Of a stretch of DNA of 64,000 bases, positions 5,964 to 59,587 are shown in pieces. Position numbers and translations under genes: made by a program. This stretch comes from Polynucleobacter sp. AP-Ainpum-60-G11 (GTDB lineage: Bacteria > Pseudomonadota > Gammaproteobacteria > Burkholderiales > Burkholderiaceae). Under the pieces are notes generated by a model that saw only the letters and a program-made list of their open reading frames with translations, was not told the origin of the DNA and ran no database searches. The DNA is taken from NCBI RefSeq assembly GCF_018688375.1, contig NZ_CP061318.1, positions 1,550,001 to 1,614,000 on the forward strand. The letters run 5' to 3'. Numbering within the stretch: position 1 is the first letter of the stretch; each line of letters begins with the position of its first letter.

Positions 5964-8351
5964 TCAGTCTATTGCTGCAAGCTTAGCAATACTGAGCTGC
6001 AACCATTTCACACCATGTCGCTTGAAGTTCACTTGAGCTCGCGCATCAGCATCATTACCCTCTAAGCCTGTAACCTTTCCCTCTCCAAACTTGGTGTGGA
6101 AAACATTTTGCCCAATCGTAAATGGGTAATTACCTCTTGGTGGTGAAGCCATTCTGGTTACAGCAGTCGATGCAGAGCCTACACGCCCAATTTGTCTAGC
6201 GGGTCGCTCGCGTTCATTACCGCTGTCAAAAAAATCATTAGATCCAAATTCACGCTGACGCGTGTAGCCATCCTGCCAAGTCGAGCCTGCGCGACCGCCA
6301 TTGCCACCGGTAGCACCACCCCAACGAGCATCTTTTACTTTTGGGGTAAGCCACTTCAATGAATCAGACGGCAACTCTTCCAAGAAGCGGGAGGGCATGT
6401 TGTAACGCACCTGGCCATGAAGCATCCGAGACTGCGTGTGAGAAAGGTAGAGACGCTCTTTTGCTCGAGTAATCGCGACATACATCAAGCGACGTTCTTC
6501 CTCTAAACCATTCTGCTCATTAATACTGTTCTCGTGCGGGAACAAACCTTCTTCTAAGCCAGTAATAAATACGGAGGTGAACTCCAAACCTTTGGCGGAG
6601 TGCACTGTCATCAACTGCACAGCATCTTGACCTGCTTGTGCCTGGTTATCACCAGCCTCAAGCGAAGCATGCGAGAGGAATGCTGCTAACGGGGAGACCT
6701 CTACTGTCCCGGGTGCGTTCTCACCCGGTAGCGTGGCAGCGGTGGCATCCTGACCATAACCCTCTTCCGCAATAAATGCGGTTGCGGCATTGATGAGTTC
6801 TTGTAAGTTTTCGACACGATCCTGGCCCTCACGCTCTGAGAGGTAATGCTGAATCAATCCGCTGTTCTGAATCACAAACTCCACTGTTTCAGGCAGAGTG
6901 TTGTGACGCGTAGCTTCACGCATGTGATCTACTAAACGTACAAAACCTCCCAAGGAAGCGCCGGCTTTACCATCCAAGGTTGAGGCTGCTAAATACAGAG
7001 AGCAGTTTTGTGCACGCGCTGCATCCTGCACTGCTTCAATGGATCTCGCCCCAATGCCGCGTGTTGGGAAATTGACGACACGAGAGAAAGAGGTGTCGTC
7101 ATTCGGATTTTCTAAAAGGCGGAGGTAAGCCAAAGCGTGCTTAATTTCAGCGCGCTCAAAGAAGCGTAAACCACCATAGACACGATAAGGGATCGCTGCA
7201 GAAAATAAAGCGTGCTCGATGATGCGTGACTGGGCGTTACTGCGATAGAGCAAAGCAATTTCAGTACGCTTGATACCGCTATTTACTAGCGCTTTGATTT
7301 CGTCTACGAGCCAAGCGGCTTCTGCGTGATCACTCGGAGCATCATAAATACGGACTGGCTCGCCATGACCCGCATCGGTTCGCAGGTTTTTGCCTAGACG
7401 ATCCGTATTGTTGGAAATTAGGTAGTTAGCAGTATCCAAGATGTGGCCATGTGAGCGGTAGTTTTGCTCAAGCTTGACCATCATTGGGTGATATTGCTTT
7501 TCATACAGACGCATGTTCTCTACATCGGCGCCGCGGAATGCGTAAATACTTTGATCATCATCGCCCACTGCGAAAACTGCACTGCTTCCCATGCCGCTGA
7601 CATTGACGCGACTAGCATCATGACCGGAGAGTAATTTAAGCCACGCGTATTGCAAGGCATTGGTATCTTGGAACTCATCAATCAAGATATGGCGGAAGCG
7701 CTCTTGGTAGTGCGTACGAATCGCTTCGTTATGTTTGAGCAATTCATAGCTGCGTAAGAGGAGCTCAGCAAAATCAACTACGCCTTCACGCTGGCACTGC
7801 TCGTCATAAGCCTCATAGAGTTGAGCCATCTTTGCTTGGAAGTCATCCCCTACGGATAATTCTTTGGCGCGCTGACCACGCTCTTTGGCATGCGCAATGA
7901 AATACTGCAACTGCTTAGGGGGGTATTTTTCATCATCGACCTTTAAGCCCTTTAAAAGACGCTTAATGGCAGAAAGCTGATCCTGGGTATCCAGAATCTG
8001 AAAAGTAGATGGTAAACCCGCTTCCTTGTGATGCGCACGCAGTAAACGATTACAAAGACCGTGAAAAGTACCAATCCACATACCCCGAGTATTGATGGGC
8101 AACATCGCGCTTAAGCGCAACATCATCTCTTTAGCGGCCTTATTGGTGAAGGTCACTGCTAGAACACCAATGGGTGAAACCTGGCCCGTCTGGATCAACC
8201 AAGCTATACGGGTCGTGAGGACGCGGGTCTTTCCACTGCCGGCACCAGCCAAAATGAGGGCTGACTGGGCCTGGCCATTTGAATTGACAGGCGGGAGGGT
8301 CACTGCCTCGCGTTGTTCTGGATTAAGGTTTGCGAGCAAGTCTGAGTACAT
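5964..8351 (-). CDS. uvrD: DNA helicase II, UvrD/PcrA type
   Basis: This 795-residue superfamily 1 helicase unwinds DNA 3'-5' in mismatch and nucleotide excision repair. Visible motifs are the Walker A AGAGSGKT near residue 36, motif Ia [18 protein letters not shown], Walker [10 protein letters not shown], motif [16 protein letters not shown], motif [21 protein letters not shown], and motif VI VAITRAK. The C-terminal region has a Gly-rich linker and a small domain with [11 protein letters not shown], as in UvrD and Pcr[15 protein letters not shown] favours UvrD over Rep. The ATG at 8349-8351 is only 24 bases from the divergent valS ATG. Confidence 0.96.
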
Positions 8352-8358
8352 CGCCCCA

Positions 8359-8366
8359 ATTATAAT
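8359..8366. promoter_or_regulatory. Symmetric bidirectional -10 element for uvrD and valS
   Basis: The perfect palindrome AATTATAATT occupies 8358-8367. It holds TATAAT on the plus strand (8361-8366) and TATAAT on the minus strand (8364 down to 8359). From the plus copy, transcription would start near 8373, two or three bases before the valS ATG at 8376. From the minus copy it would start near 8352, next to the uvrD ATG at 8351. The 24 bases between the genes leave no room for ordinary leaders. No good -35 is visible in either direction. Confidence 0.7.
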
Positions 8367-8375
8367 TTGCCTCTT

Positions 8376-11267
8376 ATGCCAAATGCTTCGAATACCCCTA
8401 ATTCACCAGCGGCCAGTTCCTTAGACGAACTAGCCAAATCCTACGAACCCGCCCCAATTGAAGCTTATTGGGGTCCGGAATGGGAACGCCGAGGCATTGC
8501 CGACGCCACCCTAGATGAGGGCAAGGGAGATTTCTCGATTCAATTGCCACCACCGAATGTGACGGGCACCCTCCACATGGGTCACGCCTTTAATCAAACC
8601 ATCATGGATGGCTTGGTGCGTCATGCCCGCATGTCTGGCAAAAATACTTTGTGGGTTCCAGGCACAGATCATGCTGGTATTGCCACACAAATTGTTGTTG
8701 AGCGCCAGCTTGATGCACAAAAAGTTTCTCGTCACGATTTAGGTCGTGAGAAATTCTTAGAAAAAGTCTGGGAGTGGAAAGAAACTTCCGGCAATACCAT
8801 TACCCGTCAGATTCGTCGCCTAGGCGCTTCGATTGATTGGGGCAAAGAATATTTCACGATGGACAGCAAGATGTCCAAGGCGGTTGTTGAAGTCTTTGTG
8901 CGCCTACATGAACAAGGTTTAATTTACCGCGGCAAACGTTTGGTGAACTGGGACCCTGTTTTAGGAACTGCAGTCTCCGATCTAGAAGTAGTGAGCGAAG
9001 AAGAAGATGGCTCCATGTGGCACATCCGCTATCCATTAGCTGATGGCTCTGGACATCTCACCGTTGCCACCACTCGCCCAGAGACTCTGTTAGGCGACGT
9101 GGCCGTCATGGTCAATCCAGAAGATGAGCGCTACAAACACCTCATCGGTAAGTCAGTGCAACTACCGCTGTGCAATCGTGAAATTCCGATCATCGCAGAC
9201 GACTACGTGGATTTAGCTTTTGGTACTGGCGTGGTTAAAGTGACACCTGCGCACGACTTCAACGACTATGCCGTTGGACAACGTCATCAGTTACCACTCA
9301 TTAATATCCTTACTCTGGATGCCAAGATCAATGAGAATGCGCCAGCGGTGTATCAAGGTCTTGAGCGATTCGCTGCACGCAAACAAATCGTTGCTGATTT
9401 AGATGCTGCCGGTTTATTGGAAAAAGTACAGCCACATAAATTAATGGTGCCACGTGGTGATCGCACTCAAACCATCATTGAACCCATGCTCACTGACCAA
9501 TGGTTTGTTGCAGTCTCAAAGCCAAGTCCTGATAACAAATATCAACCTGGCGCATCCATTGCTGGCGCTGCATTAGATGCCGTCACTAAAGGTGATATCA
9601 AACTCGTTCCAGAAAATTGGATCAGCACCTATACGCAGTGGTTAGAGAATATTCAAGACTGGTGTATCTCGCGCCAACTCTGGTGGGGTCATCAAATCCC
9701 TGCCTGGTATGGCGATGATGGGCAGATCTTTGTGGCTCGCTCTGAAGAAGAAGCCAAGGCTAAAGCTGCTACTGCCGGATACAAAGGTCAACTCAACCGC
9801 GATCCTGACGTTCTGGATACCTGGTTTAGCTCTGCGCTAGTGCCTTTTAGCTCCTTAGGCTGGCCAGAAGAAACGCCTGCGCTCAATCACTTCTTACCAT
9901 CTTCAGTATTGGTAACCGGCTTTGACATCATTTTCTTCTGGGTAGCCAGAATGGTCATGATGACTTGCCATTTCACCGGCAAGGTACCGTTTAATACGGT
10001 GTACGTTCATGGTCTAGTCCGTGATGCCGAAGGTCAGAAGATGAGTAAATCCAAAGGAAACACTTTGGATCCAATCGACCTCATTGATGGCATCAAGATT
10101 GAAGGCTTAGTTGCTAAGCGCACCACCGGCTTGATGAATCCTAAGCAAGCTGAAAGCATTGGCAAGAAAACCAAGAAAGAATTTCCCGAAGGTATTCCTG
10201 CATTTGGTACAGACGCTCTGCGTTTCACCTTTGCCTCACTCGCATCACTCGGTCGGAATATTAACTTTGACCAGAAACGCTGCGAAGGCTATCGCAACTT
10301 CTGCAACAAGCTCTGGAATGCCACTCGCTTTGTGCTCATGAATTGCCCTGGCAATGATCAAGAGAATGGCTTTGCTCCTTGTGACAGCCAATGTGGTCCA
10401 GAGGGACAGCTTGATTTCTCTCCAGCAGATCGCTGGATTGTTTCTATCTTGCAAAGAACTGAGGCTGATGTTGCTAAGGGCTTCCAGAACTATCGCTTTG
10501 ACAATATCGCTACCAGTATTTATCAATTTGTATGGGATGAGTATTGCGATTGGTACTTGGAGTTGGCCAAGGTTCAACTACAAACGGGCACGCCTGCACA
10601 GCAACGCGCGACTCGTCGTACGCTACTACGCGTTTTAGAAACGATCTTGCGCATAGCTCATCCACTGATTCCATTCATCACTGAAACTCTTTGGCAAACC
10701 GTTGGACCTAAGGTTGGTAAAGAGTTGGCAAAGCAAGATAAACAAACCATTGCTCTGCAGCCTTACCCTGTTGCTCAGCTCGATAAGATTGATGAGCAAA
10801 GCGAAGCTTGGGTAGCTCAGATTAAATCGATTGTGGATGCTTGCCGTAATTTACGTGGAGAGATGCAAGTCTCCCCTGCACTAAAGGCACCCCTCTGGAT
10901 TAGTGGATCGCAAGATTTCTTAAAACAGGCAAGCCCTTACTTAACTGCCTTAGCCAAGCTGTCTGAAGTCAAAATCTATGATGATGAGTCAGCCTTAGAA
11001 AAAGATGCTCCAGGTGCGCCGATGGCCTTGGTTGGGAATCTCAAGTTATTACTCAAAATTGAAGTCGACGTAGCAGCCGAGAGAATTCGCCTCAGCAAAG
11101 AAATTGAGCGCTTAGCCAATGAGATCACTAAAGCCCGCAGCAAGCTTGGCAATGAAAGCTTCGTGGCTCGCGCCCCAGAAGAGGTTGTAGCTCAAGAAAA
11201 GCAGCGTCTTGCTGGCTTTGAGCAAAACCATGAGAAGCTTGTTGCACAATTAGATCGACTGAAATAA
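8376..11267 (+). CDS. valS: Valyl-tRNA synthetase
   Basis: This class I synthetase of 963 residues charges tRNA-Val. The HIGH motif appears as LHMGHAFN near residue 65 and the KMSKS loop as QKMSKSKGN near residue 553. Between them is the CP1 editing domain, with TTRPET. The C-terminus ends in the valyl-specific coiled-coil arm (about 895-963, rich in Arg, Glu and Lys). A TTG three codons upstream is in frame, but the ATG at 8376 gives the usual N-terminus. There is no Shine-Dalgarno sequence; the mRNA is probably leaderless. The gene is followed after 28 bases by galU on the same strand. Confidence 0.98.
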
Positions 11268-19103: not shown

Positions 19104-19971
19104 TTTTCAGAAACTCTGCGACGCTGGGATAGCGTAGCGGAGTTTTCAATTCTGCTAGTCGCGTATTCGTTACGCGCCGTGACTCTCGCATAAAAGACCA
19201 CAGCATTGGGGATACGATTTTCTCCAACTGCTCAGCGGGCAATCTTGGTGGTCGCTCTAAACCAAACGCATCAGCTACTTCATCAAAGTAATCACCCATC
19301 TTGGTTTCGCCGCCGTCACAAGCATTAATGACGCGCTGTGGTTTACCGTGATAGACAGCAGCACAAACCAATCTCGCCAAGTCATCACTCTGAATGTGGT
19401 TCGAGTAGGCATCCTCAGTTGCAACTAAAGCAGGTGTTCCCGCCTGAATACGCTCCACTGGCAAGCGGTCAGTGGCATAGATGCCTGGTACGCGCAGAAT
19501 GGTGAGTGCGACTCCATGAGCCGGGGCCCAAAGACGGAGGCAATGTTCTGCATCGACTCTGCGCTTGGCGCGCTCACTTTGGGGATTCACCCGAGTCACC
19601 TCACTCACCCGACCACCCGCATGATCACCATAAACACCAGTCGTGCTCACATAAATCAAGCGCCCAACAGTATCGGAGCCTTGGGATAAAATTCGGAGGA
19701 GGTTGCGAGTTCGGCAATCGCGATGACCTGTATTTTGGGGTGGTGCCAAGTGGATCACGGTTTGCGCTAGTCCACTTAAACGCCACAAGCTATCGGGCTT
19801 ATCCAGATCCCCCAAAATCGGAATCGCGCCCACTGCTCTCAACTCCTTAAAACGGATTTTTTGGGAAGTTAGGGCATATACGCGATGACTTCGAGCAAGC
19901 TGCTTGGCAACACGCAGGCCAATATCGCCGCAGCCGACGATCAGGATTCGAGATTTACCAAAAGGTTGCAT
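19084..19971 (-). CDS. NAD(P)-binding Rossmann-fold protein, epimerase-like
   Basis: This 295-residue protein has the extended short-chain dehydrogenase fold. The nucleotide-binding loop is ILIVGCGDIGLRVAKQL near residue 8, where a GxGxxG pattern replaces the usual GxxGxxG. YVSTTGVYGDHAG near residue 110 contains the active-site Ser/Thr-Tyr region, but the usual YxxxK lysine is not evident (SERAKRRVDAE follows instead). Such proteins resemble sugar-nucleotide epimerases, often called YeeZ-like; the substrate is unknown. It overlaps the end of glnS by 20 bases and diverges from the flavoreductase gene. TACGAT ends seven bases before the ATG. Confidence 0.85.
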   Translation of the reverse strand: MQPFGKSRILIVGCGDIGLRVAKQLARSHRVYALTSQKIRFKELRAVGAIPILGDLDKPDSLWRLSGLAQTVIHLAPPQNTGHRDCRTRNLLRILSQGSDTVGRLIYVSTTGVYGDHAGGRVSEVTRVNPQSERAKRRVDAEHCLRLWAPAHGVALTILRVPGIYATDRLPVERIQAGTPALVATEDAYSNHIQSDDLARLVCAAVYHGKPQRVINACDGGETKMGDYFDEVADAFGLERPPRLPAEQLEKIVSPMLWSFMRESRRVTNTRLAELKTPLRYPSVAEFLKTISKNP

Positions 19972-45987: not shown

Positions 45988-45993
45988 TATAAT
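45988..45993 (+). promoter_or_regulatory. Candidate -10 element of miaA (leaderless)
   Basis: A perfect TATAAT is followed by five bases, GAGGG, and then the miaA ATG at 45999. The GAGGG touches the ATG and is too close to act as a normal ribosome site. No good -35 lies 16-18 bases upstream. Confidence 0.5.
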
Positions 45994-45998
45994 GAGGG

Positions 45999-47003
45999 AT
46001 GCGTACTGAACCCCACATTCAGCCCAAGCATGCTCCTAATCAAGCGCCAATACTCTGTATTGTTGGTCCTACAGGCGCAGGCAAAACCCATCTCGCAATG
46101 GCATTAGCGGAACATGCGAAATCCATTGGTCAAACCCTTGAATTAATCAGCATGGACTCCGCCTTGGTATATCGCGGACTAGATATTGGGAGCGCTAAGC
46201 CGACCAAAGCAGAACAAGCCGCAGTTCAGCATCACCTGATCGATATCCTAGAGCCAACTGAATCCTACTCTGCGGCACGCTTCGCAAACGATGCCAAGCG
46301 ACTGTGTCAGGAAATTCGAGAGCGTGGAAATATTCCTATTGTGGTGGGGGGCACGATGCTCTACTGGCGCGCGTGGGCATATGGCCTTTCCTCACTTCCG
46401 CCAGCAGACCCAGTAATCCGTGCCCGCCTTGATGAGCAAGGTAAAGCGATTGGCTGGCCTGCGATGCATGCTGAATTAGCCAAGGTAGATCTCATTACTG
46501 CTGCACGTTTACAGCCCAATGACTCTCAACGCGTGCAACGTGCTTTAGAGGTTTATGAAATTACTGGCAAACCCATGTCGGAACTACTGGCTGATGCCCC
46601 AAGCGAAGATGGTAGAGAAGGCTCCTCTATTCCAGAATGGATTGACCTGATCTCACTAGAACCAAGCGATCGCTCACGCTTGCACCAGAACTTAGAAAAG
46701 CGCTTTGATGAAATGCTTGCCGGGGGATTGCTAGAGGAAGTTGAGCTACTCAAAAAGAATCCAGATCTTCATGGCGATCTGCCTGCCATTCGCTCTGTTG
46801 GCTATCGACAAGTCTGGGAATACTTATCCGATCAAGTAGATCAAACTGAAATGCGCTACAAAGCCCTGGCAGCAACTCGGCAGCTTGGTAAACGACAGTT
46901 AACGTGGTTGCGAGCAATCGCCGGAAGAAAAACATTTGACCCGTTCAACCCAACCGAGCTGAACGCGGCCCTAGAGTACTGCAAGCAAAGTCTGAGTCAA
47001 TAG
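45999..47003 (+). CDS. miaA: tRNA dimethylallyltransferase
   Basis: MiaA adds a dimethylallyl group to A37 of tRNAs reading codons that start with U. The 334 residues show the P-loop VGPTGAGKTHLA near residue 21, ISMDSALVYRGLDIGSAKPT, VGGTMLYWRA, and the later DSQRVQRALEVYEITGKP and RSVGYRQVWEYL. The start is the ATG at 45999. It converges on purM with 14 bases between. Confidence 0.97.
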   Translation: MRTEPHIQPKHAPNQAPILCIVGPTGAGKTHLAMALAEHAKSIGQTLELISMDSALVYRGLDIGSAKPTKAEQAAVQHHLIDILEPTESYSAARFANDAKRLCQEIRERGNIPIVVGGTMLYWRAWAYGLSSLPPADPVIRARLDEQGKAIGWPAMHAELAKVDLITAARLQPNDSQRVQRALEVYEITGKPMSELLADAPSEDGREGSSIPEWIDLISLEPSDRSRLHQNLEKRFDEMLAGGLLEEVELLKKNPDLHGDLPAIRSVGYRQVWEYLSDQVDQTEMRYKALAATRQLGKRQLTWLRAIAGRKTFDPFNPTELNAALEYCKQSLSQ

Positions 47004-58564: not shown

Positions 58565-59587
58565 TCAAGTTCCCATTGAGGAACTCAATGCGCCTGATAA
58601 CAACTTAGAAGTAATGTCGACAATCGGAATCACCCGATCGTATGCCATACGAGTAGGGCCAATAACGCCAAGCGTTCCGACGATCTGCCCATCTACGCTA
58701 TAAGGTGCGCTGATGACTGCGAGATCTTCATAAGGCAGCAAATCACTTTCGCCACCAATAAAGATCTGAATACCATCAGCATGACTTGATACATCCAGCA
58801 ACTGCATAAGCACCGACTTCTGCTCCAGCATGTCAAACATCTTACGCAGCTTATCTAAATTAGTACTGAGATCACCAACATTGAGTAGGCGTCGCTCACC
58901 CGATAGCAGCATGTCTCCTTGGCCCATACCGTAATCGCTAACGCCACTGTGTAGGGCCAAGGCCATCAAGCCAGAAATATCACTACGCAAGTTATCGAGA
59001 TCAGAGGCTAGATGCGCCCGCACTTCAGCAAAGCTCTTACCAGCGAACTGCATATTGATGTAATTGCCAGCCTCCACCAGCTGACTTGGGGTGTAGTCCT
59101 GCGTTGTCGGGAGGATGCGATTCTGGACATCACCCTCTGGGGTCACCATGATGAGCAAGATCTTGCCCTCGCCAAGTCGTAAGAACTCGATATGCTTAAA
59201 CACCTGAGCCCGCTTAGGCGTCATCACCACCCCAGCAAAATGGGTCAAATTAGACAGAATTTGCGCAGCAGAGTTCAGCACTCTTTGCGGGGAATCTGGC
59301 AAAAGTCCTTTTTCCATCTCCCGAGTAGCGATTTCTTCTAAGGGGCGAACGGTCACCATCGTATCTACAAAGAGTCGATAACCTCTTGGGGTTGGTATAC
59401 GCCCAGCTGATGTGTGGGGGCTGGTAACCAGGCCCATGTCTTCTAAATCCGCCATAACATTGCGGATCGTAGCCGCAGAAAGATCCAATCCCGAGAATCG
59501 AGACAGGGTGCGTGAGCCAATAGGCTGCCCCTCTTCGATATAGCGCTCGATGAGGGTTTTCAGTAAGGCGCGGGAACGATCATCCAT
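58565..59587 (-). CDS. hrcA: Heat-inducible transcription repressor HrcA
   Basis: HrcA represses chaperone genes by binding CIRCE repeats, usually before groESL. The 340 residues have an N-terminal winged helix ([64 protein letters not shown] in outline) and a GAF-like C-terminal part with the late [18 protein letters not shown] found no CIRCE sequence in this window. Its ATG is 37 bases from the divergent nadK ATG. Confidence 0.97.

Follow-up and report, generated by a model that had tools for sequence, protein, structure and literature searches.

The window analyzed here, a stretch of 64,000 nucleotides (G000:C1:1550001-1614000), belongs to the genome of Polynucleobacter sp. AP-Ainpum-60-G11, which consists of one contig of 1,906,556 bp; the closest named relatives are Polynucleobacter, with 92-93% identity in ValS. 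Near its start two divergent genes lie back to back. A uvrD-family DNA helicase gene occupies 5964-8351 on the minus strand (ATG at 8351), and valS, encoding valine--tRNA ligase, occupies 8376-11267 on the plus strand (ATG at 8376). The valS match scores above the NCBIfam cut-offs, and the best match of the helicase is uvrD (TIGR01075) with 933 bits, below the equivalog cut-off of that model (1144). The gap at 8352-8375 is the entire interval between the two start codons, 24 bp, a length also found in most loci of the genus crown. The first-pass annotation had called both genes essential or nearly so, a description apt for valS; E. coli can do without uvrD.

In this gap, AATTATAATT (8358-8367) forms a ten-base perfect palindrome and reads as a perfect TATAAT on each strand, exactly as first described. 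The -10 element of valS (8361-8366, plus strand) is placed 9 nt upstream of its ATG and that of uvrD (8359-8364, minus strand) 7 nt upstream, the two overlapping reciprocally on opposite strands with four shared bases (TATA), an arrangement seen in all 101 genus loci. Together they form the shared bidirectional core ATTATAAT (8359-8366), the centre of AATTATAATT. Counting +1 as the seventh nucleotide past each -10 reproduces the starts predicted earlier, 8373 on the plus strand and 8352 on the minus strand. A uvrD start at 8352 would leave a leader of 1 nt; the -1/+1 step there is pyrimidine/purine in 81 of the 82 crown loci and the +1 is a purine in all of them, within gap columns (8352-8355) that are variable. 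For valS the seventh nucleotide is a C, not a purine, and the predicted start zone spans 8373-8376 (seventh to tenth nucleotide past the -10, leader of 0-3 nt). This zone holds a single pyrimidine-purine step, T8375/A8376, and initiation at A8376 would be 10 nt away from the -10. The predicted separation of the divergent starts is 21 bp, or up to 24 bp if valS starts at A8376.

The palindrome by itself is not a rarity. In 100 shuffles of the 64-kb window, AATTATAATT occurred on average 0.13 times per shuffle (one copy in 12 shuffles), so that the presence of the palindrome in 64 kb by base composition alone is not very improbable. The 8-mer ATTATAAT is found once in the window against 0.86 expected. 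Scaled to the whole genome, the shuffle rate gives about four expected copies of the 10-mer against the one found, which is the copy in the uvrD/valS gap; the 10-mer is thus not over-used, merely well placed. The pattern ATTATAATN{6,11}ATG matches this genome twice, both times at this gap, once per strand. The decisive test is conservation, and the aligned junctions show that it is passed.

The comparison covered 101 genus genomes, a sample drawn from a larger group. The pattern ATTATAATN{6,11}ATG was present in 100 of them, the exception being G093, where valS runs off the contig. The junction set also numbers 101 loci (82 crown and 19 deep-branching), made up of 97 of the searched genomes plus four named loci; it contains at least one duplicate, L048 being the same record as G003, and G078, G085 and G119, known only as matched pattern strings, stand outside the placed junctions. 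Exactly one ATTATAAT lies between uvrD and valS in each of the 101 loci. Columns 8356-8369 are invariant across the 82 crown loci, and columns 8359-8367 (ATTATAATT) across all 101, whereas all 82 fourfold-degenerate sites near both starts vary in the crown (four bases at 75 of them, three at 7), as do all 68 in the whole genus. Loss of the palindrome among relatives had been named as a ground for rejecting the idea, and the element persists; the conserved unit, however, is ATTATAATT rather than the full ten bases. Position 8358 is an A in this genome and a C in five of the 19 loci that branch deeply, and the outer base of the palindrome is therefore not conserved. Other ATTATAAT sites flanked on each side by an ATG at a distance of 6-11 nt occur at G001:C40:12935-12966 and G080:C182:19222-19249.

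Spacing to the start codons is conserved to different degrees. The valS ATG lies 6-9 nt past its -10 in 99 of the 101 loci, the exceptions being G091 (21 nt) and G015 (35 nt), and this spacing is kept despite variation in both the length and the sequence of the ValS N-terminus. An ATG or GTG for uvrD stands 7 nt past its -10 in 82 loci; in the remaining 19, the deep-branching ones, the start is 21-25 nt away. Both starts fall within 6-9 nt of the -10 in 81 loci, which supports, for the crown of the genus, the earlier prediction that both messages are nearly leaderless. Double leaderlessness is evidently not needed for function, since uvrD is spaced by 21-25 nt in 18 loci, both genes are spaced in G015 (valS 35 nt, uvrD 22 nt) and valS is spaced in G091. 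The last (L188/L208) is the only crown locus without an ATG at the usual valS place, the next ATG lying 21 nt from an intact -10, and it reads as a natural return to a leader. In G015 (L113), an ATG 9 nt past the valS -10 begins a frame of eight codons, and the stop codon of this frame overlaps with the ATG of valS in TAATG; the frame may be a leaderless mini-ORF translationally coupled to valS.

Is there another promoter nearby? Within 300 bp of the crown junctions, no other -10-like hexamer (at least 5/6 matches, with A2 and T6) is common to at least 30% of the 82 loci on either strand, the offsets being ungapped, so that indels could blur sites deep in valS. The proposal of a single symmetric -10 for both genes is thus supported. 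The best -35 hexamers mostly match at 2-3 of six positions in both directions, no better than at random positions. A generic -35/-10 scan of 7900-8900 reported one promoter-like site, inside valS, and as many in shuffled sequence; it did not report the uvrD/valS gap because no -35 is present there. Both observations suggest that the promoter may be weak.

A start codon a few nucleotides past the -10 is not exceptional in this genome. The window and 20 further stretches, 464 kb in all, hold 384 ORFs with an ATG, their starts picked by rule and not by annotation. In 28 of these ORFs a -10 (at least 5/6) precedes the first ATG by 6 nt (17 ORFs), 7 nt (6), 8 nt (2) or 9 nt (3), where the rate at 1303 internal ATGs predicts 0.58. 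Of the 116 genes whose neighbour is divergent, 15 carry such a -10; when distances of 16-19 nt are taken as a control, the number is 3. This excess indicates that leaderless architecture is common here, and the view that leaderless coding genes would be unusual in this organism is not supported: 28 of 384 ORFs is a sizeable class. The favoured spacing is 6 nt; uvrD, at 7 nt, falls inside the peak, and valS, at 9 nt and with no Shine-Dalgarno site, belongs to its tail. A genome-wide count of TATAAT at 4-14 nt upstream of ATGs of any kind shows no enrichment, with 50 cases compared with 93 of the reversed pattern; this count is unhelpful, and the peak becomes clear once it is restricted to the starts of long ORFs. 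A near-leaderless candidate in the window is miaA (45988-45999), with TATAAT 5 nt before the ATG and GAGG between them. Searches found no literature on leaderless genes in Polynucleobacter. Leaderless transcripts are known in the family: 4.67% of primary starts are reported as leaderless in C. metallidurans (PMC7563307), and in B. cenocepacia transcription of 72 genes begins on the start codon itself and that of 42 no more than 10 nt away, tRNAs accounting for 24 of these leaderless-type transcripts (PMC4603805).

Outside the genus the two genes are served by two promoters. Fourteen named outgroup loci (from Burkholderia, Paraburkholderia, Caballeronia, Trinickia and Cupriavidus) have a longer gap, with one plus-strand TATAAT before valS in each and a minus-strand TATAAT before uvrD in 13; L060 lacks the latter, and that of L043 is 590 nt from the ATG. 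Seventy genomes of the family were also searched, 65 of them outside the genus (2 without a valS match, 7 not fetched, 56 fetched). The genes are adjacent and divergent in 42 of the 56, from 15 other genera, some of these pairs being the same records as the named outgroup loci. One perfect -10 faces each gene in all 42 pairs; the two are 16-1068 bp apart in 41 and are shared as ATTATAAT in one, G250. Two genomes of the same genus as G250 (g91), G230 and G265, carry CATTATAAGCG and CGTATAATCG 67 bp apart, and G250 reads CATTATAATCG, the remnant expected from a deletion between two TATAA copies. In two reduced genomes (1.2 Mb) of g85, G224 (L323) and G273 (L321), the valS -10 is ATTATAAT and uvrD retains a separate -10 some 55 bp from it. 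They illustrate another possible route, with the base change first, and a possible intermediate before sharing. Among 120 genomes of the order, inspected by eye, the only close pairs seen were those of the family; outside it the nearest pair was about 6.6-7 kb apart (G155, G043), in a set where fragmented assemblies could hide others. Since close uvrD/valS pairs were seen only within the family, the state with two promoters must be the older one, and the opposed -10s of all 42 pairs, separate in 41, point to a shared element derived by merging two promoters. Most simply, this would have happened at least twice.

A FastTree phylogeny of UvrD and ValS parts, built from 103 loci after 12 of the 115 were set aside as too short, and rooted on the 14 outgroup loci, agrees with this order. 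Two deep clades in which uvrD is spaced by 21-25 nt branch before the crown in which both genes are of the leaderless type, and the four promoter states need three changes on the tree, the least possible. Local support is 95-100% at the deep forks, in a quick tree with many inner forks open. The branching supports a succession from two promoters with leaders, through one promoter with a uvrD leader, to one promoter and no leaders.

These data bear on an alternative in which only the valS promoter is real, ATTATA being kept as an A/T-rich upstream aid and uvrD having its promoter at another place, such as within valS. Because four of the eight bases belong both to TATAAT and to its mirror, conserving one largely conserves the other, and variation is indeed lower on the valS side, which reads TTGCCTCTTATG in 69 of 82 crown loci, than on the uvrD side. 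However, positions 8359-8360 (A and T), which only the uvrD direction requires, are invariant in all 101 loci, and no other minus-strand -10-like hexamer is common within 300 bp in the crown. The fixed uvrD start codon of the 82 loci, with its nearly constant pyrimidine/purine start step, and the perfect -10 that uvrD owns in all 42 relatives argue in the same direction, and the alternative is unlikely.

A further claim was that polymerase, able to occupy only one orientation at a time, links DNA repair to tRNA charging, so that competition for the shared -10 would act as a regulatory switch. It is true that overlapping -10s cannot be used simultaneously and that the element is retained across the whole sampled genus, but neither a regulator site, nor regulation data, nor opposite expression of the two genes was found. 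At five E. coli bidirectional promoters competition is reported to be absent, their basal activity being too low for it (PMC12825309), and after UV treatment of P. asymbioticus UvrD changed just 1.29-fold, valS being absent from the main text of that study (PMC7522526). The claim has gained no support, and a coupling of this kind is very improbable.

Least probable of all is that the palindrome is primarily the operator of a dimeric regulator, with any promoter role secondary: a perfect palindrome between divergent genes would suit one, but neither several genomic sites nor a conserved outer symmetry was found (there is a single copy, and 8358 may be A or C), the relatives with two separate -10s lack the palindrome in 41 of 42 pairs, the two g85 genomes apart, and a second divergent gap with a comparable arrangement, that of a pdxH/tcdA-like pair, has only the TATA centre in common with it.

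This second gap (L268:799-820; G000:C1:570799-570820) is 22 bp long and was found by eye. Its sequence CAGTATAAAGA is invariant in the best 30 of the 57 matching genomes (61 searched), and the TcdA-like gene beside pdxH scores below the cut-off of its model. It is probably a second near-leaderless pair with a shared TATA, resembling uvrD/valS in its TATA centre, in its register (AGTATAAA) and in its conservation in 30 of 30 loci examined, and differing in its imperfect hexamers, TATACT and TATAAA. A scan of 58 sampled divergent pairs for leaderless-type -10s on both sides (at least 4/6, with A2 and T6 kept) gave four rows, one of them implausible (gap of 1 nt), with a shared -10 only at uvrD/valS; it missed the pdxH/tcdA-like pair because TATAAA has no T6. 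Divergent gaps can be shorter still: 8 bp between pyrE and xth (L281:6876-6883) and 11 bp between a KpsF/KdsD-type isomerase gene and a transporter-like gene (L280:7562-7572), gaps so short that the promoters must sit inside the opposite gene. In the window, two divergent ORF pairs have longest-frame ATGs that overlap by 38 nt (59550-59587) and 87 nt (19885-19971); their true starts are probably further in, or else the promoters lie within coding sequence.

The preferred reading is therefore that ATTATAAT is a bidirectional sigma-70-type -10, the sole core promoter of uvrD and valS, derived by merger of two promoters; we give it a probability of roughly 0.77. RNA polymerase would occupy the element in either orientation, starting near 8352 for uvrD or near 8373-8376 for valS. 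Leaders of about 1 nt and 0-3 nt would follow, and with no Shine-Dalgarno site translation of both mRNAs would be of the leaderless kind. The ancestor of the family would have had two separate, opposed -10s, each gene with a leader. Because TATA reads identically on both strands, a short direct repeat is present in any two -10s of opposed orientation (ATTATAA... / ...TATAAT). A single perfect two-way promoter could thus arise if the DNA between the repeat copies were deleted, or if a substitution in the valS -10 were followed by loss of the other -10. This step is placed in the Polynucleobacter stem, after which the leaders would have been lost from one gene and then the other, that of uvrD later, in the crown group. 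Strong selection would then keep the merged element, as the sole promoter of an essential gene, throughout the genus.

Judged by its sequence, the uvrD/valS element is an extreme form of a known kind of promoter. The bidirectional promoters described by Warman, Grainger and colleagues in E. coli and Salmonella likewise have reciprocal overlapping -10s on opposite strands and a poor -35, and in chromosomes lie mostly between divergent genes (PMC12825309, PMC10268837). They are defined by starts 7-25 bp apart, 18 bp being the commonest distance and 10 and 23 bp common (PMC10268837, PMC12825309); the 21 bp predicted here falls within that definition and off these peaks. Unlike them, the uvrD/valS hexamers are both perfect consensus sequences sharing TATA, both genes are coding and nearly leaderless by prediction, and the element is conserved genus-wide and apparently derived from two promoters. 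Leaderless genes of Deinococcus-Thermus and Actinobacteria also have a -10 a few nucleotides before the ATG and no Shine-Dalgarno site (PMC12340547). The known examples are single-direction, whereas here one element is predicted to make two genes leaderless. Judged by title, no literature was found on leaderless divergent genes at bidirectional promoters or on divergent uvrD/valS.

Grainger's group has proposed that bidirectional promoters are an early stage that evolution later removes (PMC10268837). At uvrD/valS the opposite order is indicated, and it is about an even bet that such promoters can also be evolved end products, reached here at least twice in shrinking genomes, and not only primitive states. 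The locus offers a minimal, selection-tested case, in which eight shared base pairs would serve two coding genes, one of them essential, with virtually no leaders, and a natural series running from two promoters with leaders, through a shared promoter with one leader, to a shared promoter with none. Together these open the origin of bidirectional promoters, and what such promoters cost, to testing, and they suggest that leaderless expression may be a by-product of genome compaction in this abundant freshwater genus.
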